Assembly (NCBI GenBank): GCA_014843695.1 | Contig: CM026402.1 | Coordinates: 15,439,037-15,503,036, forward strand | Direction: 5' to 3' | DNA from: Archivesica marissinica | Lineage: Eukaryota; Mollusca; Bivalvia; Venerida; Vesicomyidae | Length of the DNA: 64,000 bases | Shown here: piece after piece, positions 8,566-60,827 of the stretch | Position numbering within the stretch: position 1 is the first letter of the stretch | Layout: every line of letters starts with the position of its first letter | Made by a program: the position numbers and the translations under genes | The notes under the pieces: generated by a model | Seen by the model: only the letters and a program-made list of their open reading frames with translations | Told to the model about the DNA's origin: nothing | Databases searched by the model: none

Positions 8566-10712
8566 ATGGAACTTTTCTGTACACCACTTGGAGAGAAATT
8601 ACCGAACCCCAAGGATTTGAAAGGCGTTTGGGACAGTAATTTGTCGCGTTTACCGTTCTTCAGGACACAGGATTTATACAATTATCTTGTGCTGAACAAT
8701 TCCAGAACATTCGACTCCGAAAATATGAATGCAAAGAAACAACTTAAAGCAAGTGTTCTACGAGGATAGACATTTACATTCAGTCAGATATCATGAAATT
8801 AGTAGGACATGTTCTCATTGCTATGTTAAGGCACAAGTTATGCCATCACTGCCAAATGACAAGAAAAAAGGTACAGACTACATGGCTTGGGTATGCCTGT
8901 CAAAAGTATCCGGGATGGTTCATGCAGCAGGATGCAGTTGTGATGGCGGGTAAGGCATTTGCTTATTTATATTCCATTCATCATTATAATTAATATCGAA
9001 CCTTTGGGCGTATTATGCATGTTTTCCTGACCATGCTCTACCTACCTCAAGCGGTTAGTCTGTACTATTACTAAGCGGTTAACCAGTACTATATAAAGCA
9101 ATGTGAGAGAGGGCACCGTGTCTTGATCAAGGGCACTACATACATGTATGTGGCGTGACCGAGTATCAAACACAGGACCCCCCAATCTCCAATGGTGGTT
9201 AGCGTGTAGATTTGTTACATGCACGATAGATTTTCAGATGGTGCACCATGGCATATGTCCCCCTAAAGGTGCCGAAACAGGAGGCACCACATGCTCGCAC
9301 CTGAAAATCACCCGGGGACCACTCAATAATCAGCCAATATAAAAACCATCTTTTATTCTATTTATCTCGCATTGAAGTAAAAAATAAGAAAATTGATTGG
9401 AATGAGCTACATGTAGTGTACATTGTAAACGGGAAAAAATTAAATAAGTTTTATTTTAATCTAAATTTTTGTCCCGTTATTGTACTCGAAGAGTTAAATA
9501 AAATTATTATGTTATGCTTAAGTACTGTTTTCTTTTGTTTTAGAGAAGGGGAGTCATGCAACCACGTAGCTGCACTATTGTATGCCTTGGTGGACATCTC
9601 CAATAAGCAGGCAGACGGCCTAACAGCTCCAACATCCTCCAAATGTAAATGGAATCAACCTCGTAAAAGGAAACTAAGTCCAAAGAAGTCACAGAATCTT
9701 GTTTTCAAGAAACTGAAGTTTGAAGACAAGCCAGAGAAGGAAATCAACATTAAAACTCACAAATTGCATGAACATGATAAAGTTCAACCTTTGAATACTG
9801 TTTCATTCATTGAAAAATTAAGGAAGTGTGCACCACATGCTGCTTTACTTTTAAGTGATAGCAACTTAATTCCAGAGTCAGAAAAGAAGGTGGTAAATGA
9901 GATACCCCAGCTCCACAATGTTGACTTTATGTATCACGATAATGTAGATCTGAAGAGTAAAAATTGCCAGGATATGTTTGTATCATACTTTAATTCCCTG
10001 AAATGCAGTAAAAGTGATTGTGTATTGATCGAAACTAATACAAAGGGACAAAGCAATAGTCATTTTTGGAAAGAAGCCAGACAGGGCAGACTGACGAGTT
10101 CAAACTTCGGAACAATTGTCAAACAAAGGGACGATACACAACCCGATGTCATGTTAAAAACAATATTGGGGTACAACACCTTCAATTCTGCAGCAAAACG
10201 TTGGGGCAGAACCCATGAAGCTGCAGCACGGCGGTTCTATATTAAATTGAATCAAAAATCACACCCAAACTTGAAAGTTTATGGGAGCGGGTTAGTGATT
10301 TCGCCTGATCACCCATACCTGGGAACCAGTCCTGACGGAATTGTTGAATGCTGCCAACAATGTGTGGACAAACAAGGTTTGTTGGAAATAAAGTGCCCAT
10401 TCAAATGCAGGCAAATCACTCCCAAGGAAGCCTGCGAGGACAAACAGTTCTTCTGTGAAATTGTCAATGATGAAATTAAAACGGAAACATTCATATTATT
10501 ACCAAATACAGGGCCAAATGGCATTAACCGGTAGGAAGTGGTGCGAATTTTTTGTATGGACTTTGAAAGGACATTTTACAGAAAGGATCGCGTTTGATGG
10601 GCACGTTTGGAATGAAATGTTGCCCAAATTGATATCGTTTTATAAAGAAGCAGTTATCCCAGAACTGTTCTCCGAGCGTGTGGGACGTGGAAAAGCCCTT
10701 TACAATGTATAA
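8566..10712 (+). pseudogene. SWIM-zinc-finger / YqaJ-type nuclease gene of the ISL2EU-like element (broken)
   Basis: Exon 1 is 8566-8949 and exon 2 is 9544-10712, with donor GGGTAAGG and acceptor tttgttttag. The junction joins AGCSC to GESCNHVAALLYAL, forming a CxC...CxH SWIM-type zinc finger. Further on come QGRLTSSNFG, a GTSPDG motif, LLEIKCPF and YYYQIQGQ followed by WCEFF. These are the conserved blocks of YqaJ-like PD-(D/E)xK exonucleases: Asp in SPDG, ExK in EIK, and the downstream Gln. Two frameshifts break it: near 8753, where the frame passes from ...QLKAS to VFYEDRHLHS, and near 10470, where ...VNDE passes to KLKRKHSYYY. Known YqaJ proteins process DNA ends; a role in transposition is inferred from its position inside the element, opposite the transposase. 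A SINE remnant sits in the intron. Confidence 0.75.
9040..9220 (-). mobile_element. Diverged tRNA-like SINE remnant
   Basis: CTCAAGCGGTTAGTCTG, AGCGGTTAACCAGTACTATA and a degenerate B box (GTATCAAACACAGGACCCCC on plus) resemble the family D layout, but the copy is too diverged to classify. It lies within the YqaJ gene intron. Confidence 0.45.
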
Positions 10713-11767: not shown

Positions 11768-13003
11768 CCACTGCATGCTAAACGGATAACTTCCTCACTT
11801 GAAAGAACTGACAGCGGTGAGGTAAGTGATTTAACAAAACTTAAGAAAATAATAAAACATGATGAATAAAATACATGTATATACTTTAATATAATACATG
11901 TACACAGTAACACACTTTGACCTAACAATAAAAACAGTCTTATTTTTTACATCGCTGAAAACTTTACATAATTTGTTGGATTATGGTCCTGCAAATTAAT
12001 CATCACCATCATGAATTAGTGGTGGTAACAAGTTAGAAAGTCCGACACAAATTTTCAGTATTTTTGATGCTTGTTGTGAAAGAGTGATAGGCATCACACC
12101 TTGAAGAATTCTAAAGTTTTTCACTCTTTCCATAGCGCGTTCAACATCAATGCGCAAGTTGGCTATGCGTCTGGTTTCTTCCACCTGCCGCCGATTGAAA
12201 CGCTGCATTTTCAATGGTGGAATAATAAGATGCATTCCCCGTGGTGCCGTTAAATCAGAAATTGGCTGGTAATGTTGCTGCATGTGGATTTCGAAACATG
12301 AAATCTTCTTGCTAAATCCTCCAACAATAATCCAAGTCTTAACCGCAAAAGTACAAGAAAAAATTCATCGATTAATCGCAGCCTCCTTGGACGACCTTGC
12401 TTCTCTCTATTACCATGATTACGATGTGTATTTGCCTCGGCATCATCCAACTCATTGAAAATTAAATTAAACGTGTCAACATTGGGCAACCCTGTGTAAA
12501 ACATACACATTTCACTGTTTTTAATGTCTTCAATTGTGATATCTGGTTTCTGTGCCTGTATACCAATTTCACACGTTATTTGGAAATCGGTCTGTGTTCC
12601 AAACGTTCTCATAGATTTTATTTCAGGAACATCATAAGAAATATCCGTCTGTGTTGAACAACACATGCCATTAGAAATTGTTTGCGTTTCTTTATCAAGT
12701 GTGTCCGTAAATGTAGCTTGATCAGGAATAGATGGAAGATAGTCATGAAAGTGTACCGACACAAATTCCACTGACGAATTTGACAAAAATGGTGTGTTTG
12801 AGAAATTCTCTTCCTCCATGTCCTTGTCGCACGGTTCATCTGCAATGTCTTCGACAATTTCAGCCGGGGTAACATCATGTACCTGAAAAGCATAAATATA
12901 TATAATTATAATAATGTTACGAAAACCATTATCATACAACGTTCAAAAGTATTATTGAATATTGTCACTCAGTTGTAAATTAGTTTGCAACACAGACTGT
13001 GTC

Positions 13004-13324
13004 CAGGGGCATTTTTGGTCATACGCACAGCATCGAGCACCGCAGGTGCGAACTAGCTATGGGGATCTGGGGGCAACTCCCCCCCCGAAATTTTTTGAAA
13101 TCTAGAAGTCCTGTGGTTCATTCTAGGCTATTTCCAGCACTATTTTCAAAGTAAATATTAACACAATTATACCCATAAATAATTCATTTATTTTATTATT
13201 ATAATTTGGAGACCGTACCCGTGTAAAGCATCGATTTTTACTGCATATTTCGCATTTTTATGTTTTGGACTTTCCCAATCAATTGACAAGTGTACGCACG
13301 TGCGTATGCCTAGGCACACCCCTG
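13004..13324. mobile_element. hAT-like MITE in the transposase intron
   Basis: The left end is CAGGGGCATTTTTGGTCATA. The reverse complement of the right end is CAGGGGTGTGCCTAGGCATA. Both share a CATACGCAC block. The direct repeat GTGTC flanks the element (12999-13003, 13325-13329). The GC-rich block near 13065 (ggggcaactcccccccgaaa) resembles other hAT termini here. It lies in the intron 12883-13718. Confidence 0.6.
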
Positions 13325-13429
13325 GTGTCAGTTGACTATTTTTTTAATTAATTGATTAATAGTAATAATAATCAAATTTTAAAATAGAATAAGCTATCTA
13401 GCATCGTTTCTCTGTTTCTGGAAATACCT

Positions 13430-13580
13430 GAAGTGCTGATCAGTGAGGATGGGTGGGGTATTGAGATGCAGAGACGATACGACCGGGGACAAAGAGGATA
13501 TTTTGGAGAAAACATATCCTGTGACCGAGCATTGAACCCGGGACCCATCTATCTCAAATCTGACACTCGAAACTACTGCA
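13430..13580 (-). mobile_element. tRNA-like SINE remnant
   Basis: On the plus strand ATTGAACCCGGGACCC is the complement of a B box, and CACTCGAAACTACTGCATCA could be a worn A-box region. It matches none of families A-E well. Confidence 0.35.
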
Positions 13581-14110
13581 TCATGAACATGGGGCGAGAT
13601 TAAAGTTTATTTGTTGGACAGGGTTGCGTTTATTTTCTCGGATGACCTAATGTGCAACATGTAGGCCTAGGAGAACAAACAATTCTGAGAAATGTATATA
13701 AATTGACTAAATTCTCACCAACGAAGTTGCTTCAAACTGTTTCACTCTGCCATCCTGGAGAACGAAAATGGATGGAACGTTGTTTTCCTTTGATTTCCTA
13801 TCGTAAACTCCATCTATGAAGTGCGCAGAACACAAACGATCATCGCGTCCATTGAACACAAATGTGGAGCTCACAGTTCTAATCCGCTTCAACCACGCAT
13901 TTTGTAGTAATTTATTAGCTGGGAAGCGATGTAACGTAGTAATTACGTCATTCACACTCCTTCCCTCTGTAATTACTGCACACACAACAATAATGTCTAT
14001 TCGAACTGCGATAATTTCTACTTTTTCCAACATAATTTCCTTTATTTATGTCCTCCATTTTTCCTCTCCAAAGATTTTAACAGTATGCTAATTTTATCTT
14101 TACCTGTGAG

Positions 14111-16200: not shown

Positions 16201-16584
16201 CACTTTAGGCAGACCCGTAATTAATCAGGGGCAGATAACAACTTATTGAACAGGACTATAGTATGAGTTACTGTTATTGGCGATTTGCAAATCAATATCC
16301 ATCATGGGAGATAATTTACACAATGTATTTCACAAAATTAATTCGTGTAAGGGTTAAGTTTTCAAAATTATACTTACAATGCGAATGAGTTATTATTGAA
16401 AATTATAACACATTTGACAATAACCTAATCACGATTTATAATAATCTGATCCTTGGAATATCTCCGCGTTGGGCTATCAGTAGGCCTACGTTTAGCAATA
16501 CGTACGGGCTATCCGTTTGGATCCTTGATGGAGTCTAACAATCTGTACTGTCAGTCTGTCAGTATATGCACAGTGCTTACTTAC

Positions 16585-17029
16585 CCAACAGTAGAACGAA
16601 GTCAACCGTCTCTATTCCCGAAACACCCAACGAAACAAGAGCTCTGAGGACGACGAAAATCCAAAAGTACGGGGCGAATGCTGAAGCAATTCCAAACAGT
16701 GCAACAACAATTAGGGCTGCCAGAAGCGGCTTCTGTCTCCCGAACTTGTCACTCAGTGACCCAAATGTAAAACTCCCTAACAAACCAATGATACCACCAC
16801 AAAACGGAAGCACTGGGAATATCATGTCGTCTAAATTCCACTCCAGTTTTACAGGTTTACTCAGAAACACTATCAGCATCATCTCTGCACACCCTGCAAA
16901 ATATGCTCCACAAGTCAGTATCACCATTTTGAGATGAAACTTTCCGAATTTCAGCGCCGATAAGACATCGTCTAAATGTGTTTCATTATTCTTTGATGAC
17001 AGCGGTGCTGTTCTTAAAGTATTCTCCAT
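16585..17029 (-). CDS. SVOP/SV2-like MFS transporter, first coding exon
   Basis: The start chosen is the ATG at 17029 (MENTLRTAPLSSKN), because sequence upstream in the same frame (to 17194) lacks family resemblance. The 148 residues hold a cytoplasmic N-terminus with DDVLSALKFGKFHLK, TM1 (about 33-56), TM2 (70-90), the MFS motif GSLSDKFGRQKP (90-101), TM3 (102-119) and TM4 (122-147). The donor GTAAGT starts at 16584. The phase-1 end joins the exon at 303-584 to give ...VDFVLLLEFLPKKNRGC, matching the family across the junction. Members sit in vesicle or plasma membranes; the substrate is unknown. The gene is on the opposite strand to, and diverges from, the BPL_N gene. Confidence 0.85.
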
Positions 17030-17687
17030 TGTTTCGGTACTTTTCACTGAGTGTTTAATCAAAATATGTAAAATGAATGCATGCACATGTTTGACCTCTC
17101 CCTGCCGGTGTTTACATCTGATGTCAAGGCCGTGTATGTGGTTCCCGGCTATCGATCGTTCATGTGATACTACAAAACGGGAACAGGGAACCAAACTGAT
17201 TTATATATTGCTCACTGTAATAGAGGTTAAACATGTGTACTATTTTGGAATAGGTGTTGGTTTATTAGAGGTATTCATTGATTTATTAGAGGTATTCATT
17301 GATTTATCTAAACAGGCTATGTTTCGCATTAGGAGGAGTAGATCTAGGCTCTAGATATCATTTTAGTCCAATGTTTTAATTGGTCAACACATGTCTATCT
17401 TCAGATTGTACATATTTTTATTCCAAATTTGCCGTTATTCTCAATATAAATTCGCGATTCCCGGTCATAATCGATATATTGAGTAGTAACCCATAGCTGG
17501 GTGGTACAACGGCCAGGGGTACTACGACGTAAGACGAGGCCGAGGGTCGAGTTGACTAGGGTACGGGTTGGTCGCGTACAGGTATATATGTGTAGCGCAG
17601 GCCTTATCTATATGTTATATAGAAAAGTTATAGTGTGTACTATTATTGTACTGCAAGCAATGCTCACTTATATGTATATCTAGATGA
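17030..17687. other. 5' UTR/promoter side of the SVOP-like gene
   Basis: It contains the 5' UTR by inference. A tandem duplication (tttattagaggtattcattg twice, 17260-17301) is visible. The stretch 17602-17665 repeats a segment from 3582-3655. No TATA box or promoter can be assigned with confidence. Confidence 0.4.
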
Positions 17688-22442: not shown

Positions 22443-22632
22443 ATGCGGGTGCTGTTAAACAAGTATGCATGGTTATTAAGAGACACATCAAGGAGAATGA
22501 AGCATGTATTGGTGTACACAGGGAAAGGAATGTATGGTGAAGATACTGACATTTTAGTAAGGGTACTGAAACAGCACGTGGACACGACCTTGTATCACGT
22601 GGACACCGTGTCTGCAGCGGATATTATCAAAG
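22443..22632 (+). CDS. BPL_N-domain protein, first coding exon
   Basis: The exon carries the N-terminus of a biotin-protein-ligase N-terminal-like (BPL_N) domain: MKHVLVYTGKGMYGEDTDIL, then VLKQHVDTTLYHVDTVSAAD. The ATG at 22443 gives 18 extra residues; the ATG at 22497 starts exactly at the domain and may be the real start. The donor is AAAG|GTATAC at 22633, phase 1. It splices to the exon at 26974 to give IIKGRLTEDTRLLAIGGG, which fits the family. A MITE terminus begins only 11 bp past the donor. The full protein would be 423 residues (405 from the second ATG). It acts presumably in the cytosol, since no signal peptide is seen. Confidence 0.75.
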
Positions 22633-23535: not shown

Positions 23536-23812
23536 AAAATTAGGTTTTAGCCTTTGAATAACGTCGTATTATGAACCAATGGTATACAGTGTTGCCAACT
23601 TTGATGTGTACTGTCTATTCACCAACCCCTTCCAAGTGTATACGGGAAGGGCCGTAACTAATGTTGCTAGAAATTGTGACCTGACCCGTTTGCTTTTCTT
23701 TAATTTGTCATGCTGTGTGTTTACATGTAAAACAAATTGAGCAATATAATATGATTATGCTAAACCTAGGCCATAATTTTGGTATATAGACTGTGGTAGA
23801 CGTAAACCATTT
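23536..23812. other. Spacer in BPL_N intron 1
   Basis: No feature recognised. The end aaaccatt may be part of extended inverted ends of the following hAT element. Confidence 0.35.
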
Positions 23813-25246
23813 CAGGGGCGGTGCCAGGGGGGGTTCGGGGGGTGCGAACGAACCCCCTTTTTCAGTTAATGGTGTACGATCATATGATGAAACCCATCTC
23901 AAGGAATGCTTCATATTATCATCACCAGTCGCATAATGAGATGATTCATTTGATTGGCCACTCCATCATCCAAGCAGATATTATTACAGAGATTAAGAAA
24001 TCAGGTTTTCACACTGTAATGGTGGATGAGGTAACATCAAGCAATGATGAAATTCTATCAGTTTGCTTTCGCTTTGTAGACGAAGTGAAACAGATACGAG
24101 AGGAGTTCGTTGAGTTCATCAACATTCATAGAATTACTGGCGAAGCTATCGCTAATGCCATCCTGGAGTTCCATAAAAACGTTGGTTTGGATATTCATCA
24201 GCTTCGGGGGCAGTGTTATGATGGTGCCTCAATCATGTCTAGCGAGAAGAAAGGCGTATCTGGAATCATTTCACAGCATGCACCAAATGCTCCATATACC
24301 CATTACAATGGACATATTCTTAATATTTCCATTGCCGCTAGCTGTAAAGCTAATAACATACAGCATGTGATTGCTACCATGAAGGATGTAGCTCTTCAAC
24401 TACTCTCCAAAACTGGAAAGGCTCATATAAATGATAGCGGAAAAACGTCACGTTCACAATGCCACCACTAGAAACGTGATAATTGGCATGTGCAAGACCC
24501 GTTGGTCGGAGCGCGATACCGCTTATGAGCATTTCTACCTGGCCCTACCATTCCTGGTAGAGTGCTTTAATATCATCAGTGGTACTCACCCGGACATGGA
24601 TGATTTTGATAAGGCGTTTACGGAAGGCTGGGACTCGAAATCAAGGAAAGATGCAATTGCTCACGCTAAAGCTGTGATGGATGTCGGATTTATTGTTGGT
24701 CTGGTGTCGCTGTATTACCTGTTGCACCCTCTTCACGGCGTTACCGTCTACCTTCAGGGTCGAACGATATACATTGTAAAAGCTTACCAGTTGATTGATG
24801 AAACCGCGTCTGATATGAAAGCGACAAGTGACAACGTTGAAGAAGGTTTCAAAAAGATCTACGAACAAGCCGAACGCATCGCAGAGAAACTAAACGTTGA
24901 TCCGTCTTTGCCACGCATTGCCAAACGCCAGATCTATCGTCAAAATCAGCCCGCTGATACGCCAGAAGAATATTATCGCCGTACAGTTGCCATTCCACTT
25001 CTTGACTGCATCATCAGTGAGATGGATATACGATTTAACAAACTTTCACAGAGAGCTGTGAAGCTGCTGATGCTTGTTCCTGCCATCTGTTTTACCATAC
25101 ATTTTGAGCTCTAGAATGCAGGAAATGCCATTTCAGAGCTTCCAGATTTACAATTTTCCGGGGGAGCACCCCCCTAGCAGGCTCCTGTCCTACGGGCAGT
25201 CGCACTTGCATCGAACCCCCTCCAGAAATTCCTAGCGCCGCGCCTG
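23813..25246 (+). mobile_element. Decayed hAT element (ZMYM/DUF4371 type)
   Basis: The left end is CAGGGGCGGTGCCAGG and the reverse complement of the right end is CAGGCGCGGCGCTAGG. The inverted similarity extends outward (ACCATTTC on both sides). GC-rich subterminal blocks (gggggttcggggggtgcgaa; tccgggggagcacccccc) flank the transposase remnant. No direct target duplication could be identified. It lies in intron 1 of the BPL_N gene, in the same orientation. Confidence 0.7.
23866..25114 (+). pseudogene. hAT transposase remnant with DUF4371-like domain
   Basis: The first frame (to 24471) has VMVDEVTSSNDEILSVCFRF, then REEFVEFINIHRITGEAIAN and LRGQCYDGASIMSSEKKGVS, the conserved catalytic core blocks of hAT transposases related to ZMYM1/DUF4371 proteins (Asp in VDE, Asp in YDGAS). 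A frameshift near 24430 moves to a second frame with CKTRWSERDTAYEHF (conserved TRW) and continues to FTIHFEL stop at 25112-25114. The N-terminal TTF zinc finger and the C-terminal hATC dimerisation segment are both missing, so the gene is inactive. Confidence 0.75.
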
Positions 25247-26973: not shown

Positions 26974-27201
26974 GCAGACTGACCGAGGACACCAGATTGC
27001 TGGCTATTGGGGGCGGGTATGACAGAGGTTTGATACAAGCCCTAGGAGACACGGGTATGACCAACATCAAGAATTATGTGCAGTCAGGCGGGAGCTACCT
27101 GGGTATCTGTTCAGGAGCGTATTTCGCATGTGACCAGATAGAATTTGACAAGGATGGGCCACAAGAAGTTTGTGGGGAGAGATTTCTGAAATTTTATCCA
27201 G
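26974..27201 (+). CDS. BPL_N-domain protein, middle exon with the nucleophile Cys
   Basis: The exon runs from acceptor gcattgacag to donor CCAG|GTAGGT and is phase 1 on both sides. It encodes RLTEDTRLLAIGGGYDRGLI, then IKNYVQSGGSYLGICSGAYF and EVCGERFLKFYPG. The GGSYLGICxGAY block is the nucleophile elbow of the class I glutamine-amidotransferase fold in BPL_N proteins; the Cys is residue 109 counted from the ATG at 22443. GGG in place of the usual PGG is a small deviation. It has no introns, stops or frameshifts, unlike the neighbouring transposon genes. Confidence 0.85.
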
Positions 27202-28131: not shown

Positions 28132-28453
28132 TAGCTGCAATAGTTCTTGCTCTTGTTCCATAGCATGCTTGTGTAGAACACAGTACATTATATCTCACTT
28201 TGATGTATCATCCAAAACACTTTAGAATTAATTTATTCAGATATCATTGTATATCAGGGATGGGTATAGGACCACTGTTCAAACCCTATTATTGTACATC
28301 TATCAGGGATGGGTATAGGACCACTGTTCAAACCCTATTATTGTATATCTATCAGGGATGGGTATAGGACCACTGTTCAACCCCTATTATTGTATATATA
28401 TCAGGGATGGGTATAGAACCACAGTTCAAACCCTGTCATTGTATATCAGGGAT

Positions 28454-28545
28454 CACAGGGATTCGGCACGTTTGGGGGTACTAGTATATATATTTAAGTA
28501 CTTAAATATATATACTAGTACCCCCAAACGTGCCGAATCCCTGTG
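28454..28545. mobile_element. Perfect 92-bp palindromic MITE with 8-bp target duplication
   Basis: Two 46-bp arms starting CACAGGGATTCGGCACGTTT meet at TTTAAGT|ACTTAAA without a spacer or mismatch. The target duplication TCAGGGAT is at 28446-28453 and 28546-28553 and lies within a minisatellite unit, so insertion followed array formation here. A sister copy is at 43334. Confidence 0.95.
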
Positions 28546-31080
28546 TCAGGGATGGGTATAGGACCACAGTTCAAACCCTGTCATTGTATATCAGGGATGG
28601 GTATAAGACCACTGTTCAAACCCTATCATTGTATGTATATCAGGGATGGGTATAGGACCACCGTTCAAACCCTATTATTGTATATCTATCAGGGATGGGT
28701 ATAGGACCACCGTTCAAACCCTATTATTGTATATCTATCAGGGATGGGTATAGGACCACCGTTCAAACCCTATTATTGTACATCTATCAGGGATGGGTAT
28801 AGGACCACCGTTCAAACCCTATTATTGTATATCTATCAGGGATGGGTATAGGACCACCGTTCAAACCCTATTATTGTACATCTATCAGGGATGGGTATAG
28901 GACCACCGTTCAAACCCTATTATTGTACATCTATCAGGGATGGGTATAGGACCACCGTTCAAACCCTATTATTGTATATCTATCAGGGATGGGTATAGGA
29001 CCACCGTTCAAACCCTATTATTGTATATATATCAGGGATGGGTATAGGACCACCATTCAAACCCTATTATTGTATATATATCGGGGATGTGTATAGGACC
29101 ACCGTTCAAACCCTATCATTGTATATATATCAGGGATGGGTATAGGACCACCGTTCAAACCCTATTATTGTATATATATCAGGGATGGGTATAGGACCAC
29201 TGTTCAAACCCTATTATTGTATATATATCAGGGATGGGTATAGGACCACTGTTCAAACCCTATTATTGTATATATATCAGGGATGGGTATAGGACCACTG
29301 TTCAAACCCTATTATTGTATATCTATCAGGGATGGGTATAGGACCACTGTTCAACCTATTATTGTATATCTATCAGGGATGGGTATAGGACCACTGTTCA
29401 AACCCTATTATTGTATATATATCAGGGATGGGTATAGGACCACTGTTCAACCCTATTATTGTATATCTATCAGGGATGGGTATAGGACCACTGTTCAAAC
29501 CCTATTATTGTATATATATCAGGGATGGGTATAGGACCACTGTTCAAACCCTATTATTGTATATATATCAGGGATGGGTATAGGACCACTGTTCAAACCC
29601 TATTATTGTATATATCAGGGATGGGTATAGGACCACTGTTCAAACCCTATTATTGTATATATATCAGGGATGGGTATAGGACCACTGTTCAAACCCTATT
29701 ATTGTATATATATCAGGGATGGGTATAGGACCACTGTTCAAACCCTATCATTGTATATATATCAGGGATGGGTATAGGACCACTGTTCATACCCTATTAT
29801 TGTATATATATCAGGGATGGGTATAGGACCACTGTTCAAACCCTATCATTGTATATCAGGGATGGGTATAGAACCACTGTTCATACCCTATTATTGTACA
29901 TCTATCAGGGATGGGTATAGGACCACTGTTCAACCCTATTATTGTACATCTATCAGGGATGGGTATAGGACCACTGTTCAAACCCTATTATTGTATATCT
30001 ATCAGGGATGTGTATAGGACCACTGTTCAACCCCTGTCATTGTATATCAGGGATGGGTATAGGACCACTGTTCATACCCTATTATTGTATATATATCAGG
30101 GATGGGTATAGGACCACCGTTCAAACCCTATTATTGTATATATATCAGGGATGGGTATAGGACCACCGTTCAAACCCTATTATTGTATTATCAGGGATGG
30201 GTATAGGACCACTGTTCAACCCTATTATTGTACATCTATCAGGGATGGGTATAGGACCACTGTTCAAACCCTATTATTGTATATCTATCAGGGATGGGTA
30301 TAGGACCACTGTTCATACCCTATTATTGTATATCTATCAGGGATGGGTATAGGACCACTGTTCATACCCTATTATTGTATATATATCAGGGATGGGTATA
30401 GGACCACTGTTCAAACCCTATCATTGTATATATATCAGGGATGGGTATAGGACCACTGTTCAAACCCTATTATTGTATATATATCAGGGATGGGTATAGG
30501 ACCACTGTTCAAACCCTATTATTGTATATATATCAGGGATGGGTATAGGACCACTGGTCAAACCCTATTATTGTATATATATCAGGGATGGGTATAGGAC
30601 CACTGTTCAAACCCTATCATTGTATATATATCAGGGATGGGTATAGAACCACTGTTCATACCCTATTATTGTATATATATCAGGGATGGGTATAGGACCA
30701 CTGTTCAAACCCTATCATTGTATATCAGGGATGGGTATAGAACCACTGTTCATACCCTATTATTGTACATCTATCAGGGATGGGTATAGGACCACTGTTC
30801 AAACCCTATCATTGTATATCTATCAGGGATGGGTATAGAACCACTGTTCATACCCTATCATTGTATATATATCAGGGATGGGTATAGGACCACTGTTCAA
30901 CCCTATCATTGTATATATATCTGGGATGGGTATAGGACCACTGTTCATACCCTATTATTGTATATATATTAGGGATGGGTATAGGACCACTGTTCAACCC
31001 TATCATTGTATATATATCTGGGATGGGTATAGGACCACTGTTCAAACCCTATCATTGTATATATATCAGGGATGGGTATA

Positions 31081-31348
31081 GGTTATGTTATATTTTGGGT
31101 TTTACGCCTGCATCAGCACCATTTCGGGCTATATCGCCGGCGGGCAGTTTACTTAACAACACCTTTCCTGGGCAGGCTCCAGCGGTTAACCAGTACTTGG
31201 GTGCACCAACCTCCGTAAGAAACTGCCAACTTTTTCATATAAATGAGACACGGTCTGAGTGGGGGCTCGAACCCGTGACCATCAGTGATGATAGGTTACA
31301 GTGGTATACAAGTCAGCGACCGTAACCACTCGACCACGGAGGCGGACT
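31081..31348 (-). mobile_element. SINE family D, copy 3, inside the 49-bp array
   Basis: Full length: the minus-strand head is GTCCGCCTCCGTGGTCGAGT, the B box region GGTTCGAGCCC, and the distal end GGTGCTGATGCAGGCGTAAA. The array motif ggatgggtat occurs on both sides (31070-31079 and 31349-31358) as a target duplication. Confidence 0.9.
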
Positions 31349-33599
31349 GGATGGGTATTGGACCACCGTTCAAACCCTATCATTGTATGTATATCAGGGA
31401 TGGGTATAGGACCACTGTTCAAACCCTATCATTGTATATATATCAGGGATGGGTATAGGACCACTGTTCAAACCCTATCATTGTATATCAGGGATGGGTA
31501 TAGGACCACTGTTCAACCCTATTATTGTATATCTATCAGGGATGGGTATAGGACCACCGTTCAAACCCTATTATTGTATATATATCAGGGATGGGTATAG
31601 AACCACTGTTCAAACCCTATCATTGTATATATATCAGGGATGGGTATAGGACCACCGTTCAAACCCTATTATTGTATATCTATCAGGGATGGGTATAGGA
31701 CCACCGTTCAAACCCTATCATTGTATATATATCAGGGATGGGTATAGGACCACTGTTCAAACCCTATTATTGTATATATATCAGGGATGGGTTTAGGACC
31801 ACTGTTCAAACCCTATTATTGTATATCAATCAGGAATGGGTATAGGACCACCGTTCAAACCCTATCATTGTATATCTATCAGGGATGGGTATAGGACCAC
31901 TGTTCAAACCCTATCATTGTATATCAATCAGGAATGGGTATAGGACCACCGTTCAAACCCTATCATTGTATATCTATCAGGAATGGGTATAGGACCACTG
32001 TTCAAACCCTATCATTGTATATCAATCAGGAATGGGTATAGGACCACCGTTCAAACCCTATCATTGTATATCTATCAGGAATGGGTATAGGACCACTGTT
32101 CAAACCCTATCATTGTATATCAATCAGGAATGGGTATAGGACCACCGTTCAAACCCTATCATTGTATATCTATCAGGAATGGGTATAGGACCACTGTTCA
32201 AACCCTATCATTGTATATCAATCAGGAATGGGTATAGGACCACCGTTCAAACCCTATCATTGTATATCTATCAGGAATGGGTATAGGACCACTGTTCAAA
32301 CCCTATCATTGTATATCAATCAGGAATGGGTATAGGACCACCGTTCAAACCCTATCATTGTATATCAGGAATGGGTATAGGACCACTGTTCAAACCCTAT
32401 CATTGTATATCAATCAGGAATGGGTATAGGACCACCGTTCAAACCCTATCATTGTTATATATCAGGGATGGGTATAGGACCAGCGTTCAAACCCTATTAT
32501 TGTATATCTATCAGGGATGTGTATAGGACCACTGTTCAACCCTATTATTGTACATCTATCAGGGATGGGTATAGGACCACTGTTCATACCCTATTATTGT
32601 ATATCTATCAGGGATGGGTATAGGACAACTGTTCATACCCTATTATTGTATATCTATCAGGGATGGGTATAGGACCACTGTTCATACCCTATTATTGTAT
32701 ATATATCAGGGATGGGTATAGGACCACTGTTCATACCCTATTATTGTATATCTATCAGGGATGTGTATAGGACCACTGTTCAACCCTATTATTGTACATC
32801 TATCAGGGATGGGTATAGGACCACTGTTCATACCCTATTATTGTATATCTATCAGGGATGGGTATAGGACAACTGTTCATACCCTATTATTGTATATCTA
32901 TCAGGGATGGGTATAGGACCACTGTTCAAACCCTATTATTGTATATATATCAGGGATGGGTATAGGACCACTGTTCATACCCTATTATTGTATATCTATC
33001 AGGGATGGGTATAAGACAACTGTTCATACCCTATTATTGTATATCTATCAGGGATGGGTATAGGACAACTGTTCAACCCTATTATTGTACATCTATCAGG
33101 GATGGGTATAGGACCACTGTTCATACCCTATTATTGTATATCTATCAGGGATGGGTATAGGACCACTGTTCAAACCCTATTATTGTATATCTATCAGGGA
33201 TGGGTATAGGACCACTGTTCAATCCCTATTATTGTATATCTATCAGGGATGGGTATAGGACCACTGTTCAAACCCTATTATTGTATATCTATCAGGGATG
33301 GGTATAGGACCACTGTTCAAACCCTATTATTGTACATCTATCAGGGATGGGTATAGGACCACTGTTCAAACCCTATTATTGTATATCTATCAGGGATGGG
33401 TATAGGACCACTGTTCAACCCTATCATTGTATATATATCTGGGATGGGTATAGGACCACTGTTCATACCCTATTATTGTATATATATTAGGGATGGGTAT
33501 AGGACCACTGTTCAACCCTATCATTGTATATATATCTGGGATGGGTATAGGACCACTGTTCAAACCCTATCATTGTATATATATCAGGGATGGGTATAG

Positions 33600-33867
33600 G
33601 TTATGTTATATTTCGGGTTTTACGCCTGCATCAGCACCATTTCGGGCTATATCGCCGGCGGGCAGTTTACTTAACAACACCTTTCCTGGGCAGGCTCCAG
33701 CGGTTAACCAGTACTTGGGTGCACCAACCTCCGTAAGAAACTGCCAACTTTTTCATATAAATGAGACACGGTCTGAGTGGGGGCTCGAACCCGTGACCAT
33801 CAGTGATGATAGGTTACAGTGGTATACAAGTCAGCGACCGTAACCACTCGACCACGGAGGCGGACTG
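33600..33867 (-). mobile_element. SINE family D, copy 4 (duplicate of copy 3)
   Basis: Nearly identical to the copy at 31081, with the same flanking units at a constant offset of about 2518-2519 bp. It arose by segmental duplication, not by new insertion. Confidence 0.9.
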
Positions 33868-36800
33868 GATGGGTATTGGACCACCGTTCAAACCCTATCA
33901 TTGTATGTATATCAGGGATGGGTATAGGACCACTGTTCAAACCCTATCATTGTATATATATCAGGGATGGGTATAGGACCACTGTTCAAACCCTATCATT
34001 GTATATCAGGGATGGGTATAGGACCACTGTTCAACCCTATTATTGTATATCTATCAGGGATGGGTATAGGACCACCGTTCAAACCCTATTATTGTATATA
34101 TATCAGGGATGGGTATAGGACCACTGTTCAAACCCTATCATTGTATATCAATCAGGAATGGGTATAGGACCACCGTTCAAACCCTATCATTGTATATCTA
34201 TCAGGAATGGGTATAGGACCACTGTTCAAACCCTATCATTGTATATCAATCAGGAATGGGTATAGGACCACCGTTCAAACCCTATCATTGTATATCTATC
34301 AGGAATGGGTATAGGACCACTGTTCAAACCCTATCATTGTATATCAATCAGGAATGGGTATAGGACCACCGTTCAAACCCTATCATTGTATATCTATCAG
34401 GAATGGGTATAGGACCACTGTTCAAACCCTATCATTGTATATCAATCAGGAATGGGTATAGGACCACCGTTCAAACCCTATCATTGTATATCTATCAGGA
34501 ATGGGTATAGGACCACTGTTCAAACCCTATCATTGTATATCAATCAGGAATGGGTATAGGACCACCGTTCAAACCCTATCATTGTATATCTATCAGGAAT
34601 GGGTATAGGACCACTGTTCAAACCCTATCATTGTATATCAATCAGGAATGGGTATAGGACCACCGTTCAAACCCTATCATTGTATATCTATCAGGGATGG
34701 GTATAGGACCACTGTTCAACCCTATTATTGTACATCTATCAGGGATGGGTATAGGACCACTGTTCAACCCTATTATTGTACATCTATCAGGGATGGGTAT
34801 AGGACCACTGTTCAAACCCTATTATTGTATATCTATCAGGGATGTGTATAGGACCACTGTTCAACCCCTGTCATTGTATATCAGGGATGGGTATAGGACC
34901 ACTGTTCATACCCTATTATTGTATATATATCAGGGATGGGTATAGGACCACCGTTCAAACCCTATTATTGTATATATATCAGGGATGGGTATAGGACCAG
35001 CGTTCAAACCCTATTATTGTATATCTATCAGGGATGTGTATAGGACCACTGTTCAACCCTATTATTGTACATCTATCAGGGATGGGTATAGGACCACTGT
35101 TCATACCCTATTATTGTATATCTATCAGGGATGGGTATAGGACAACTGTTCATACCCTATTATTGTATATCTATCAGGGATGGGTATAGGACCACTGTTC
35201 ATACCCTATTATTGTATATATATCAGGGATGGGTATAGGACCACTGTTCATACCCTATTATTGTATATCTATCAGGGATGTGTATAGGACCACTGTTCAA
35301 CCCTATTATTGTACATCTATCAGGGATGGGTATAGGACCACTGTTCATACCCTATTATTGTATATCTATCAGGGATGGGTATAGGACAACTGTTCATACC
35401 CTATTATTGTATATCTATCAGGGATGGGTATAGGACCACTGTTCAAACCCTATTATTGTATATATATCAGGGATGGGTATAGGACCACTGTTCATACCCT
35501 ATTATTGTATATCTATCAGGGATGGGTATAAGACAACTGTTCATACCCTATTATTGTATATCTATCAGGGATGGGTATAGGACAACTGTTCAACCCTATT
35601 ATTGTACATCTATCAGGGATGGGTATAGGACCACTGTTCATACCCTATTATTGTATATCTATCAGGGATGGGTATAGGACCACTGTTCAAACCCTATTAT
35701 TGTATATCTATCAGGGATGGGTATAGGACCACTGTTCAATCCCTATTATTGTATATCTATCAGGGATGGGTATAGGACCACTGTTCAAACCCTATTATTG
35801 TATATCTATCAGGGATGGGTATAGGACCACTGTTCAAACCCTATTATTGTACATCTATCAGGGATGGGTATAGGACCACTGTTCAAACCCTATTATTGTA
35901 TATCTATCAGGGATGGGTATAGGACCACTGTTCAACCCCTATTATTGTATATCTATCAGGGATGGGTATAGGACCACTGTTCAAACCCTATTATTGTATA
36001 TCTATCAGGGATGGGTATAGGACCACTGTTCAAACCCTATTATTGTATATCTATCAGGGATGGGTATAGGACCACTGTTCAAACCCTATTATTGTATATC
36101 TATCAGGGATGGGTATAGGACCACTGTTCATACCCTATTATTGTATATATATCAGGGATGGGTATAGGACCACTGTTCAACCCTATTATTGTATATCTAT
36201 CAGGGATGGGTATAGGACCACTGTTCAAACCCTATTATTGTATATATATCAGGGATGGGTATAGGACCACTGTTCAACCCTATTATTGTACATCTATCAG
36301 GGATGGGTATAGGACCACTGTTCAAACCCTATTATTGTATATCTATCAGGGATGGGTATAGGACCACTGTTCAAACCCTATCATTGTATATATATCAGGG
36401 ATGGGTATAGAACCACTGTTCAACCATATTATTGTATATCTATCAGGTATGGGTATAGGACCACTGTTCAACCCTATTATTGTATATATATCAGGGATGG
36501 GTATAGAACCACTGTTCAACCATATTATTGTATATCTATCAGGGATGGGTATAGGACCACTGTTCAAACCCTATTATTGTATATGTATCAGGGATGGGTA
36601 TAGAACCACTGTTCAAACCCTATCATTGTATATCTATCAGGGATGGGTATAGGACCACCGTTCAAACCCTATCATTGTATATCTATCAGGGATGGGTATA
36701 GGACCACTGTTCAAACCCTATTATTGTATATATATCACGGATGGGTATAGAACCACTGTTCAAACCCTATTATTGTATATCTATCAGGGATGGGTATAGG

Positions 36801-37662
36801 ACCACTGTTCAAACCCTATTATTGTATATCTATCAGGGATGGGTATAGGACCACTGTTCAAACCCTATCATTGTATATCACGGATGGGTATAGAACCACT
36901 GTTCAAACCCTATTATTGTATATCTATCAGGGATGGGTATAGGACCACTGTTCAAACCCTATTATTGTATATATATCAGGGATGGGTATAGGACCACTAT
37001 TCAAACCCTATTATTGTACATCTATCAGGGATGGGTATAGACCACTGTTCATACCCTATTATTGTAAATCTATCAGGGATGGGTATAGGACCACTGTTCA
37101 AACCCTATTATTGTATATATATCAGGGATGGGTATAGGACCACTGTTCAAACCCTATTATTGTACATCTATCAGGGATGGGTATAGGACCACTGTTCATA
37201 CTCTATTATTGTATATATATCAGGGATGGGTATAGGACCACTGTTCAACCCTATTATTGTATATATATCAGGGATGGGTATAGGACCACTGTTCATACCC
37301 TATTATTGTATATATATCAGGGATGGGTATAGGACCACTGTTCATACCCTATTATTGTATATATATCAGGGATGGGTATAGGACCACTGTTCATACCCTA
37401 TCATTGTATATATATCAGGGATGGGTATAGGACCACTGTTCAAACCCTATTATTGTATATATATCAGGGATGGGTATAGGACCACTGTTCAAACCCTATT
37501 ATTGTATATATATCAGGGATGGGTATAGGACCACTGTTCATACCATATTATTGTATATATATCAGGGATGGGTATAGGACCACTGTTCAAACCCTATTAT
37601 TGTATATATATCAGGGATGGGTATAGAACCACTGTTCAACCCTATTATTGTATATATATCAG

Positions 37663-38516
37663 GGATGGGTATAGGACCGCTGTTCAAACCGTATGATTAT
37701 CAGAGCAGACAAGGAGCTGTTGCTGCTACTGTGGACTTCACTCTTAGCCGGGCACAATTAAAAGAAGAGAAAGTAGGGAACCAGTCAACATCATGTATAA
37801 ATATAGCTTGTGACCAATATAACAAACCTGAATCTCAAAGACCAATACTCTGTGAAGAATCTCAACTTAAAAATGGAATATTAGAGGACCATGACAAATT
37901 GAACAAACCTGAATCTCAAAGACAAATACTCGATGGAGAATCTCGACTTAAAAATGGAATTTTAGAGGACCATGGGAAATTAAATAAACCCGAATCTCAA
38001 AGACAAATACGCGATGGAGAATCTGAACTGAAAAATGGAATTTTAGAGGACCATGCCAATGGATTACATAGTTATATAACTGAACTGCAGCCTAGTAAAT
38101 GCTCCAGAAAGGTTGCTGAAGATACTGGGTTGAATGGTTTTAGAGAGACAGATGAATACAATGGTCTCGATCATATTAATAGTATTCCTTCCGCTGAATT
38201 GTTTAATTGTAAGGTGTATTTCAATGGTGGCGGTTATTTCGCATCAAACAAGGATAGAAACTCCGATAATATAATGGTAATGTCGAGGTACATGGATCTG
38301 ACGGAGTGTCCAGCTGCAATTGTCAGGTGTAGATTCGGAGCGGGTGTGGCCGTGTTGAGTGGTGTTCATCTGGAATATGATGATGAGGATATAGATGATG
38401 GTGACAAAACAGTGACAGATATTATACCGCGCCTGAAGGAAAGTGCTATCCATAGACGATTCATGCTGAAATCCATTTTGCATCAAATGAATATTGTTGT
38501 TAGTGAAACTATATAA
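37663..38516 (+). CDS. BPL_N-domain protein, last exon with His/Glu of the triad
   Basis: It starts after tatatatatcag. The phase-1 split Gly joins FYPG to MGIGPLFKPYDYQSRQGA, matching the PGxxxGPxxxxxxY...GA stretch of BPL_N proteins in length and position. A low-complexity insert follows with three tandem copies of a 27-residue unit (NKPESQRQILDGES / RLKNGILEDHGKL) at 37810-38052. Then come FNCKVYFNGGGYF, CPAAIVRCRFGAGVAVLSGV, and HLEYD with His375 and Glu377 as likely triad partners of Cys109. The C-terminus ends VVSETI; stop TAA is 38514-38516. Fungal relatives are fused to a biotin ligase; no ligase domain is present here. Reaction and substrate are unknown. Confidence 0.85.
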
Positions 38517-39801: not shown

Positions 39802-39813
39802 ATAGCTTAAGCA

Positions 39814-40085
39814 GTCCGCCTCCGTGGTTGAGTTGTTAAGGTCGCTGACTTGTATACCACTGTAACCTATCATCACTGATGGTCACGGGTTCGAGCCCCG
39901 CTCAGGCCGTGTCTCATTTATATGAAAAAGTTGGCAGTTTCTTATGGAGGTTGGTGCACCCAAGTACTGGTTAACCGCTGGAGCCTGCCCAGGAAAGGTG
40001 TTGTTAGGTAAACTGCCCGCCGGCGATATAGCCCAGAATGGTGCTGATGCAGGCGTAAAACCCGAAATATAACATAAAATAACAA
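39814..40085 (+). mobile_element. SINE family D, copy 5, with 12-bp target duplication
   Basis: Full length in plus orientation from GTCCGCCTCCGTGGTTGAGT to the distal CGTAAAACCCGAAATATAAC. ATAGCTTAAGCA flanks it perfectly (39802-39813 and 40086-40097), typical of LINE-mediated insertion. Confidence 0.92.
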
Positions 40086-43333: not shown

Positions 43334-43417
43334 CACAGGGATTCGGCACGTTTGGGGGTACTAGTATATATATTTAAGTATATATACTAGTACCCCCAAA
43401 CATGCCGAATCCCTGTG
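43334..43417. mobile_element. Palindromic MITE, second copy, with 8-bp target duplication
   Basis: Same arms as the 28454 element (CACAGGGATTCGGCACGTTT) but shortened to 84 bp at the centre and with one arm mismatch. Perfect target duplication GTGTTTTC at 43326-43333 and 43418-43425. Confidence 0.93.
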
Positions 43418-51935: not shown

Positions 51936-52047
51936 GTGTACCTCAGCTGCCGCCAGTCTTGATGATTTTGAAGAGAGCGTTAACATTGTTGCTCTTTATT
52001 GCAGCTCTACATGCATTCACAACCTGCGTCTTGTATTTACCCACTGA

Positions 52048-52346
52048 AAGGCAATGTTATACTTACATATAACAATATGCTATACAATCAATACTTACAT
52101 ATAACAATATGCTATACAATCAATACTTACATATAACAATATGCTATACAATCAATACTTACATATAACAATATGCTATACAATCAATACTTACATATAA
52201 CAATATGCTATACAATCAATACTTACATATAACAATATGCTATACAATCAATACTTACATATAACAATATGCTATACAATCAATACTTACATATAACAAT
52301 ATGCTATACAATCAATACTTACATATAACAATATGCTATACAATCA
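52048..52346. repeat. 32-bp minisatellite, about 9-10 copies
   Basis: The unit aatacttacatataacaata + tgctatacaatc is essentially invariant. Confidence 0.95.
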
Positions 52347-52510
52347 AACCTGTGTTGTGTTAGTGGTCACCTCTATTAGGAGCCAACCTGTATTAAACAG
52401 CCACTTTCCAGATTCAATATATGCATTTGCCCTCTATTAAGCATCCACCTGTGCTAAGCAGCCACTTTCTGTGATTCCCTTAGCTGGCTGTGTAAGACAG
52501 GTTTTTTGAC
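52347..52510. repeat. Dispersed repeat, copy 1 (partner 53522-53712)
   Basis: Segments tcaaacctg, ctgtattaaacagccacttt, ccacctgtgctaagcagcca and aagacaggtt occur in the same order at 53522-53712. It contains tandem half-repeats of the 'ttaagcagccac' motif. Confidence 0.7.
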
Positions 52511-52638
52511 TGAATCATCAATATAGCCATTTAACTTTACAAACACAGATAAATTGTATATAATGTCAAGATTGAAAAGAACACACAATGAAAATGCACA
52601 CAATTGAGTACTATTATGCAACAGTGAGTGAGTGTCAA

Positions 52639-52885
52639 GGCTGTCCGACTAGCGCAGTGGTTAGTGCGCTCGCTTCTCACCAATGCGACCCTGGTTCGAT
52701 TCTCGGACAGGGAAGTATGTGAGATGGTACGATGGTCGCCAGATCGGACAGGTGGGTTTTCTCCGGGTACTCCGGTTTCCTCCCACATGAATGACCACAT
52801 ATACGCTTTCATCCGAGCCAACGAGAGTGCTTAATATAAGTTGTTAAAACTTGCTTCGCAATCGTTGTAAAATAAATAAAGTATA
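52639..52885 (+). mobile_element. SINE family A, copy 4
   Basis: Full-length copy starting GGCTGTCCGACTAGCGCAGT. The 12-mer agtgagtgagtg occurs just before (52623-52634) and after (52900-52911) as its likely target duplication. Confidence 0.88.
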
Positions 52886-52910
52886 AAATAAAAAAAGAAA
52901 GTGAGTGAGT

Positions 52911-53130
52911 GGAAGTCGTGATAGCGCGTTCGCTTCAGGTGCGAACGGTCCGAAGTTTGAGCCCCGCTGGAGCCTTTACGCCCGTAGGCAAGGCATTTAA
53001 ATTCCACGTTGCCTCTTCTCTCTCCCTCGTGGCGATGGATTCCATCAGGAATGAGGTCTCGAGAGTGATTAATATATATTAAAGTTGTAAGAACTTGTTT
53101 CGCAATCGAGCTAAAATAAATTTGTATAAA
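52911..53130 (+). mobile_element. SINE family B, copy 3 (A-box deletion)
   Basis: The copy lacks about 12 bp in the head (GATAGCG|CGTTCGC instead of GATAGCGCAGTGGATGCGCG) and a few bases after GAGCC. It is flanked by agtgagtga on both sides (52900-52908, 53136-53144), directly adjoining the preceding family A copy. Confidence 0.85.
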
Positions 53131-53309
53131 CTAACAGTGAGTGAATGCAGATCAAACATCGCACGAGCATAGACAAATGATATTGAGAACAGTTGACATG
53201 GGGGAAATAAACAAGTTTACCGCAAGTGTCTCACAAAAATGTGTAAACCACTGGCGGTTGGTCCACCCTTGGGTATGGATATAGTAGCTATGATTGTGGC
53301 ACAACTAAC

Positions 53310-53458
53310 CTCTCATTCTGCCAGCCTTCTGGATGGTCAAGTTGACCTGTTTGAGTGCTGCCAGGAGTTCCTGGTGGTTGCCGCTGCGTATCTTATATCC
53401 ATTGATCAGATCGCGATTCATGTTGTACAACTCGGTGTAGCCTTTCTTCATATTGCCC
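53310..53458 (-). CDS. BBS2: BBS2 (BBSome subunit), penultimate-region exon
   Basis: On the minus strand, the acceptor cttatttacag ends at 53459 and the donor GAGAG|GTTAGT starts at 53309. The exon encodes (M)[37 protein letters not shown] and then [12 protein letters not shown]. This matches the C-terminal helical region of BBS2 (MKxxYxELYxLNxxLLNxYKIRxxNHxELL). BBS2 is part of the BBSome coat complex that carries membrane proteins to and from cilia. The entry phase (2 bases from the upstream exon, AT|G) agrees with the exon at 55000-55112. The final exon (VGKPKNQV... in vertebrates) was not found in the window. The plus-strand ORF 53239-53472 is its antisense shadow. Confidence 0.9.
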
Positions 53459-53521
53459 CTGTAAATAAGTAAGCATCGTGACATGAATGAGGTTTACTAA
53501 ATCTCTCAATTTTGCTATACA

Positions 53522-53712
53522 GTCAAACCTGCGTTAGTGGTTGCCTCTATTGCAACCAACCTGTCTGTATTACCTGCCTGTATTAAGCAGCCAATTTCCA
53601 GATTACCAATGTGTTGTTTTATTCTACATTTGACTTCTATTAAGCAGCCACCTGTGCTAAGCAACCACTTTCTGCGAGTCCCTTGGCTGACTGCTTAAGA
53701 CAGGCTTGATCG
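53522..53712. repeat. Dispersed repeat, copy 2, in a BBS2 intron
   Basis: Partner of 52347-52510, with the same block order and about 80% similarity by eye. It lies in the 1.54 kb intron between the two BBS2 exons. Confidence 0.7.
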
Positions 53713-54794
53713 TATTCCCAATAGTTATTTTGGTTTAGAGTCGCACCGACAGCTTAGGTAATATGTTGTTATTGGTCCCAAGTGCCCGTCTAAGCAGTAT
53801 TTCAGGCATGGAGCGACTCGGTAGAACCACCAACCTTCCGCAACAGGTCGTAATCAGCAACGCAATTTTGGAAAACTCAATTATGTTAGTTTCTCCGTTA
53901 TATAATTTTACGAAATATTGTTAGGTCAAAAATGACATTTCATGGATAGGTTGGACAGACTTGTGCACTGTTACCAATGTCAGACATTACTGGTTTTTCT
54001 ATTACCTCCCTTGTCAGGATAAATGTAATTTTATCAATATCTTGTTAATTAATTGAACCAATTTTTACAATAAGGTATCCATTGGATATGCTAAAGGATA
54101 TATGTCGAGATTTAATAATTTCATAATTATAAGACGAGAATACAGATAAAATGGAAAACATGTGGTGCAAAGGAAACAACGATAAAAACAGAGGAAACCA
54201 AGTAAGAGGACCAATATACTTTTAGGAGTATTCAGGGGAAGTAACTGACTAATGTTTCTCATTGTCATACAGATTGGATGAGAATTATTAAAGCTGTGGT
54301 TTACCAATATACACAAAGTCAGAATGCATAGTAATATCCAGAGAAATGGGACATAAGTACATTTATCACATACCTGTGATTGTATTCAGTGTAATACAGT
54401 CACATCATAATTTCTTATATGTACACATGTGTAATAACACCTGGACGGATTCTGACTGGTTGAGAGAATAATCCTTATAAATTGTATATTAAACTCTAAA
54501 TTATGCATATTTGAATTGGTACATAACGTTAATGGCAATACAAACTACGATTTAAAAGTCTCGACGCAATTATAACGCTGTTTAAAACATAAATATAACG
54601 CTGCTTTGCGTAGTGCCATCATAATAATTTAGCAACGTTAAGACAATTTGCGCTGACAGTTGGCACCAAAAAAGCCAATATGGTAATGTGATAAAAAGAT
54701 CTTACATTCGTGGTGACCCATATATATAATATTCAACTGAAACTATGATATATCTGCAGTTAAGTCTAGAATAAATATGCTTTAGAAGGTCTGT
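53713..54794. other. BBS2 intron, mostly unrecognised
   Basis: It contains a segment at 54180-54290 (caagtaagaggaccaatata ... ggaagtaactgactaatg) similar to 48310-48410. No exon-like ORF is present. Confidence 0.4.
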
Positions 54795-54985
54795 ATTTCA
54801 GATGGGACTTTAAACTGAGGTCTCGTGTCGGTGCTTTACACCGTGCACGTAAAAGAAGTAGAGGAGACTCTGGAATGGGTCTCTGTCTGTATCTGCACTA
54901 TCCTCCAAAAATTTAAAATGACTAATCTCTTCAGGAGGCGTCGCTCATATGGGCAACCAGTAGCGACGATAAATAAACGTAAAAC
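54795..54985 (+). mobile_element. SINE family C, copy 4 (head missing)
   Basis: It begins at TTTCAGATGGGACTTTAAAC and runs to the terminus AGCGACGATAAATAAACGTA. The tRNA-like head is absent. Its end lies about 14 bp from the 5' splice site of the BBS2 exon at 55000 and is antisense to the gene. Confidence 0.82.
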
Positions 54986-54999
54986 ACCCACACACTTAC

Positions 55000-55112
55000 A
55001 TATCGCCCATGAGTCTAGCATCTTCTGCTCTCACTACAAGACTACGTATCAAGTTAGAATGGTCGGCCATCTCGGCTGTCAGTTTCTGTCTTACCGCATG
55101 GTACTCGTCAAC
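55000..55112 (-). CDS. BBS2: BBS2 (BBSome subunit), C-terminal helical exon
   Basis: The exon reads [20 protein letters not shown] then [17 protein letters not shown](M). This stretch is highly conserved in BBS2 from animals ([20 protein letters not shown]). The acceptor acttacaaacacag ends at 55113, and the donor GATAT|GTAAGT starts at 54999. It is 113 bp and leaves phase 2, joining AT|G to the exon at 53310-53458. A ~78-bp minisatellite begins at the acceptor itself. Upstream exons must lie beyond 64000, making the intron at least 8.9 kb. The plus ORF 54825-55124 is its antisense shadow. Confidence 0.93.
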
Positions 55113-55418
55113 CTGTGTTTGTAAGTATAATAAGAATGATATCTCGACAAGGAGAGGTCAGTGACAGTACATGTAGTGTGTGTGTGTCTGTAGTGTTTGT
55201 AAGTACAATAAGATTGATATCTCGACAAGGAGAGGTCAGTGACAGTACATGTAGTGTGTGTGTGTCTGTAGTGTTTGTAAGTACAATAAGATTGATATCT
55301 CGACAAGGAGAGGGCAGTGACAGTACATGTAGTGTGTGTGTCTGTAGTGTTTGTAAGTACAATAAGATTGATATCTCGACAAGGAGAGGTCAGTGACAGT
55401 ACATGTAGTGTGGTGTGT
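55113..55418. repeat. ~78-bp minisatellite abutting the BBS2 acceptor, 4 copies
   Basis: The unit is tttgtaagtacaataagatt + gatatctcgacaaggagagg + tcagtgacagtacatgtagt + a gt-rich end. The first copy includes the real 3' splice site (minus strand acttacaaacacag), and later copies carry acttacaaacactacag at the same place. The units fade into the 16-bp array. Confidence 0.9.
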
Positions 55419-55945
55419 CTGTAGTGTGGAGCATCTGTAGTGTGGTGTATCTGTAGTGTGGTGTATCTGTAGTGTGGTGTATCTGTAGTGTGGTGCATCT
55501 GTAGTGTGGTGTATCTGTAGTGTGGTGTATCTGTAGTGTGGTGTATCTGTAGTGTGGTGTATCTGTAGTGTGGAGCATCTGTAGTGTGGTGTATCTGTAG
55601 TGTGGAGCATCTGTAGTGTGGTGTATCTGTAGTGTGGTGTATCTGTAGTGTGGTGCGTCTGTAGTGTGGTGCATCTGTAGTGTGGTGTATCTGTAGTGTG
55701 GTGTATCTGTAGTGTGGTGTATCTGTAGTGTAGTGTGGTGTATCTGTAGTGTGGTGTATCTGTAGTGTGGTGTATCTGTAGTGTGGTGTATCTGTAGTGT
55801 GGTGTATCTGTAGTGTGGTGTATCTGTAGTGTGGTGTATCTGTAGTGTGGTGTATCTGTAGTGTGGTGTATCTGTAGTGTGGTGTATCTGTAGTGTGGTG
55901 TATCTGTAGTGTGGTGTATCTGTAGTGTGGTGTATCTGTAGTTAG
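55419..55945. repeat. 16-bp minisatellite, left part
   Basis: The unit tgtagtgtggtgtatc appears with gagcatc and gtgcgtc variants. It is the same array as 60828-64000, interrupted by the element at 55976-60806. Confidence 0.95.
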
Positions 55946-55975
55946 CCTTTCAGCCAAGTGCAGGAAACCATGGTG

Positions 55976-60806: not shown

Positions 60807-60827
60807 ACTTCATCTTACCTGGAATAC

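Follow-up and report, generated by a model that had tools for sequence, protein, structure and literature searches.

A splice-junction minisatellite of 180 units in a BPL_N gene of the clam Archivesica marissinica, probably of the 'mirage' type

The DNA considered here, a stretch of 64,000 nucleotides from the vesicomyid clam Archivesica marissinica (assembly GCA_014843695.1, contig CM026402.1, forward-strand positions 15,439,037 to 15,503,036; hereafter the window), carries a gene for a protein with a BPL_N domain, the second intron of which contains a long minisatellite that runs into the start of exon 3. This array is very probably a 'mirage' minisatellite, that is, one founded by duplication of a segment lying across a 3' splice junction, with splicing proceeding to the last acceptor and with a function close to neutral.

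When the three BPL_N exons are spliced in silico, a single open frame of 405 amino acids is obtained, the product of which carries the Pfam BPL_N domain (E 2.7e-54). Among 63 homologous hits, the top ones come from Mercenaria mercenaria, at 50% along the full protein, and from Mactra antiquata, at 71% over 36%, and 27 of the 63 were used in the homologue alignment, with comparison at the protein level. Around the exon 2/exon 3 junction the protein reads FYPG/MGIGPLFKPYDY, the codon of G122 being split between the two exons. In the 27 aligned homologues, P121 and P127 are each conserved in 24, G122 in 25, and G126 and Y134 in all, which bears out the claim of an earlier note on this DNA that the motif PGxxxGPxxxxxxY is conserved in the BPL_N family; none of the 27 has an insertion between residues 121 and 126. 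As placed by homology, the putative authentic acceptor is the final copy of the array. Further into exon 3, a 27-residue coding repeat occurs three times (37821-38059), in a linker of variable length among homologues, and a DUF4371 piece (23806-24468) lies inside intron 1.

The array spans positions 28242-37694, both edges having been read directly; Tandem Repeats Finder reports 28252-37698, with a period of 49 and 192.9 copies. It can be parsed into 180 units, each made of exon start and intron end, among which 139 are 49 bp long, 26 are 48, nine are 45, two are 47 and one is 46, while three are enlarged by inserts (145, 328 and 328 bp). This parse agrees with the earlier description of about 180 copies of a unit of some 49 bp composed of intron end and exon start, as does the finding that most unit lengths (145/180) are not divisible by 3. 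The match between unit and exon covers 32 nt up to the join, or 35-36 nt if one more mismatch is allowed, and the AG at the junction is retained in 173 units. Pairwise identity averages 94.4% for random pairs of 49-bp units and 96.4% for adjacent pairs (n=105), and alternating two-unit repeats are found near units 67-79 and 109-119 (offset-2 identity 35/178). Elsewhere in the window the unit was not found, the best other match being 18 nt at 88.9% (E 0.19).

The founding of the array can be traced in its 45-bp units. Each consists of 16 nt of intron end and 29 nt of exon start, straddling the acceptor; its 16-nt suffix is exactly the 5' flank of the array, TATCATTGTATATCAG, its match to the exon stops at TAT, and this 3-bp TAT microhomology is common to both breakpoints of the 45-bp duplication. 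The tandem unit thus spans the intron-exon boundary, a defining feature of mirage minisatellites, and the 45-bp unit, the flank identity and the TAT join together uphold the proposal that the array derives from a splice junction. The ancestral layout was likely intron, 16 nt, acceptor, 29 nt and the remaining exon, of which those 45 bp were duplicated; the 45-bp form would be ancestral and the 49-bp form later. Because the 45-mer preserves the frame and contains no stop codon, the gene could have tolerated early copies no matter which acceptor was chosen. A gain of 4 bp in the TA-rich part would then have turned the 45-bp unit into the 49-bp unit, putting most later units out of frame, and expansion presumably went on through unequal exchange or slippage. 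The doubling of a block of 46 units, which can be read directly, was a later step. The authentic exon would have escaped homogenisation among the units, and the intron, judging from its sequence, would be removed up to the last acceptor, leaving the array close to functionally neutral.

The exon predates the array and is its source, since the 11 residues copied into the array are matched at 10 positions in Mercenaria and at nine in Mactra (6-8 in the next five homologues), in line with the earlier note, which had named exon 3 as the likely source of the unit. Within the 32 shared nucleotides, exon and units differ at two sites, both of them codon third positions, and the exon states ACCG (14-17) and CCGTAT occur in 0/180 units, the counts for the site at exon position 29 resting on the counting of CCGTAT in units. 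The units are homogenised mutually with the genic edge copy excluded, which is a further mark of a mirage. In the 139 units of 49 bp, variation at second codon positions is 0.093 as against 0.011 and 0.010 at the others, a difference driven by few sites. Since variation in the array peaks at second positions, whereas the exon differs at third positions, no coding constraint is visible in the array, and the start of exon 3 looks constrained, as far as sequence comparison can tell. Mean diversity in these units is lowest at the AG (0.014), higher in the exon-derived part (0.044) and highest in the intron-derived part (0.075); the AG positions are 99.3% kept and 27 of the 49 unit positions are invariant. 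There is no clear sign of selection on the AG or the frame of the array, for although AG diversity is below average, these 27 positions are better kept. Proteins with the repeat-encoded peptide yielded no candidate in the protein search, a null result that says little because the species' own BPL_N protein is itself absent from the 63 hits, the best full-length one being 50% identical.

The doubled block comprises units 53-98 and 99-144, the two copies differing by 41 mismatches and 3 gap columns over ~2,517 bp; it was detected by unit order and MAFFT alignment, and a blastn self-comparison gave no long block hit. Two kinds of element are inserted in the array (Table 1). A dispersed repeat, labelled by the analyst as resembling a short interspersed nuclear element (SINE), lies in unit 57 and again in unit 103 (33601-33878), its double occurrence being due to the copying of the 46-unit block. 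Further copies of this family lie at 39812-40077, 6245-6440 and 1381-1575, and the copy within the array is flanked by an imperfect duplication of 13 bp, as judged by eye. The other element, in unit 4, is a perfect palindrome with TCAGGGAT on either flank; a second copy (43334-43417) is 90% identical to it, and the first has an 8-bp flanking duplication.

Table 1. Positions of the features discussed, numbered from the first letter of the window
Feature	Positions	Strand	Remarks
BPL_N coding exon 1	22497-22632	+	in-frame join; bivalve homologues align
BPL_N exon 2	26974-27201	+	in-frame join; homologue alignment; ends ...RFLKFYP plus first base of G codon; GTAGGT donor
BPL_N exon 3 (coding part)	37663-38516	+	first 32 nt (37663-37694) are the counterpart of the unit's exonic part
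Tandem units, exon start plus intron end (n=180)	28258-37662	+	AG ahead of unit kept in 173/180
Copy of intron end at 5' edge of array	28242-28257	+	equals last 16 nt of 45-bp unit
Last array unit, 48 bp	37615-37662	+	sole upstream acceptor preserving the whole frame, +16 aa
46-unit block, first copy (units 53-98)	30876-33393	+	recognised by unit order
46-unit block, second copy (units 99-144)	33394-35910	+	compared with first copy in text
Perfect palindrome, 92 bp, inside unit 4	28454-28545	.	same flank on either side
Dispersed repeat, SINE-like, in unit 57	31083-31360	.	block copy in unit 103
BBS2, three C-terminal coding exons	52043-55115	-	two of three acceptors adjoin minisatellites

Splice junctions duplicated in tandem are known from amphioxus, where mirage minisatellites are reported for Adh3 and the globins BflGb6 and BflGb9, to which the PGBD5 paper adds PGBD5 and troponin C, and where RT-PCR (reverse transcription-polymerase chain reaction) suggests regular splicing (PMC3087553, PMC3902484). 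The BflGb6 mirage resembles the BPL_N array in that its unit joins the 3' end of an intron to the 5' part of the next exon, splice signals are kept in many units, and the units homogenise with the cluster boundary excluded. It differs in scale, as two BflGb6 haplotypes have 3 and 6 units, whereas the BPL_N array has 180 units in 9.4 kb. The host here is a clam, the microhomology of the founding duplication is readable, and the array contains dispersed elements as well as a duplicate of a 46-unit block. What is new is the phylum and, relative to the globin cases, the size; no mollusc mirage was noticed among the literature matches listed, which is weak evidence. The mirage phenomenon would thereby extend outside amphioxus, to a larger copy number than in the globin cases and with breakpoints still readable. 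In human segmental duplications, internal tandem repeats are reported at exon-intron boundaries and can alter splicing (PMC2812944); those repeats vary among paralogues and can form novel introns, whereas the sequence of the BPL_N array gives no apparent sign of a new intron.

Predicted splicing outcomes were obtained by joining exons 1 and 2 in silico to each array copy in turn. In 172 of the 173 AG-bearing upstream acceptors, a stop codon is met after 56-350 nt, with a median of 107; exon 3 holds one of these stops and the array the other 171, as anticipated by the earlier expectation that upstream acceptors would mostly give a frameshift or a stop. The exception, absent from the earlier note, is the AG 48 bp upstream of the authentic site, which is in frame and open. 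Alternative use of this acceptor at 37615 would add 16 residues in frame within the BPL_N domain, and it is the only one of the 173 that preserves the frame; but 58 of the 173 lie at a multiple-of-3 distance, so that being in frame is not unusual, and the 48-bp length, shared by 26/180 units, may be chance. Moreover, no insertion is present there, beside G122 and G126, in any of the 27 aligned homologues, and such an isoform is considered unlikely.

A second alternative, judged slightly less probable still, is that the array is a working ladder of decoy acceptors, in which upstream use yields stop-containing, degraded transcripts and array length tunes the output of the gene. The retention of the AG in 173/180 units, the early stops in 172/173, and an AG diversity lower than the unit average are all consistent with this, as is the identity of many copies to the real site, which extends over -23 to -1 in 38/180 copies and also over +1 to +16 in 33/180 (39 nt in all). 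A likeness can be drawn with human TERT, a protein-coding gene with an intronic minisatellite, a 38-bp variable number tandem repeat (VNTR) in intron 6 that is reported to alter splicing by copy number (PMC3948165). However, the TERT repeat is described there as acting via pairing of repeat RNA, whereas self-folding, the only kind of folding computed here, is no better for two units than for shuffles (z -0.11); the invariant 27/49 unit positions are better kept than the AG, and amphioxus mirages seem to leave splicing undisturbed. The Rfam matches in the window are three tRNAs, all lying outside the array. The earlier suggestion of a length-dependent splicing regulator finds no support in the folding result or in the 27 better-kept positions, and a side effect of slippage in the DNA is a likelier account of the array than a switch for splicing. 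The capture of a pre-existing satellite as the start of exon 3, which the layout alone would permit and nothing else favours, was rejected as scarcely credible, since Mercenaria, Mactra and the BPL_N family at large keep the residues encoded there and the rest of the window holds no copy of the unit.

Several points weigh against a mirage minisatellite spliced to its last acceptor. Because the interval from -23 to +16 of the real site recurs unchanged in 33/180 copies, the choice of the correct acceptor is left unexplained by local sequence. The branch-site consensus is yUnAy, and this is absent between -45 and -15 at the authentic site; in the same interval upstream, 143/180 copies have none, 36/180 have one, and two matches precede the first copy, where the upstream intron is still present. 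In addition, the length of the array may include assembly error. As local sequence does not favour the real site, exon definition or position would have to act if splicing is accurate. The locus would then be a natural test in which the spliceosome chooses one of 174 AG-bearing copies, 33 decoys being identical over 39 nt, and it bears on position and exon definition outweighing local sequence.

Tandem repeats make up 42% of the window (28 merged arrays), and other splice acceptors also lie close to them. Three of the five identified coding acceptors (that of BPL_N exon 3 and those of two BBS2 exons) and none of the five donors lie at most 36 bp from a minisatellite edge; for random positions, the chance of at least three in five is 0.0017 when all 28 arrays are counted and 0.0005 when only the 17 arrays of at least 200 bp are, although the 36-bp cut-off was set after the data had been seen and the sample is tiny, so that these values are a lead only. 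Genes were surveyed by Pfam in 20 of 87 stop-to-stop open reading frames (ORFs) of at least 90 amino acids, and some may be missed. BBS2, on the minus strand, was identified by a match to a BBS2 chain in the PDB (E 1.3e-46). The AG preceding the exon that starts at 55112 directly abuts the array from 55115, the exon starting at 52043 is separated by 16 bp from the array at 52059, and the donor at 53310 has its nearest array ~960 bp off. It is conceivable, though doubtful, that minisatellites in this genome arise preferentially at 3' splice sites and that BPL_N is the one case where the founding duplication entered the exon; if so, such arrays would provide stacks of decoy acceptors from which new splice sites and introns could be drawn.

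The window holds further features. On the BBS2 strand, the unit of the 52059 array contains a donor-like GTAAGT. The array at 55115-64000, directly upstream of a BBS2 acceptor, has 78-bp and then 16-bp units; an insert of ~4.8 kb follows, and from 60830 a similar 16-bp array continues. The ends of the insert (55976-56002 and 60780-60806) are perfect inverted repeats of 27 bp, and the insert is perhaps, by its sequence, a DNA transposon within the array. On the minus strand, 16580-17200 is probably the first coding exon of an MFS transporter, and a 3.9-kb minisatellite of 30-bp units begins ~0.5 kb upstream of it. No further MFS exon was found downstream of 16585 in the 10 of 53 listed minus-strand ORFs that were scanned, for which reason MFS acceptors are outside the acceptor count. 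A YqaJ-type recombinase ORF (9305-10531) and pieces of DDE_Tnp_4, HTH_Tnp_4 and THAP (11999-14045) are also present in the window.
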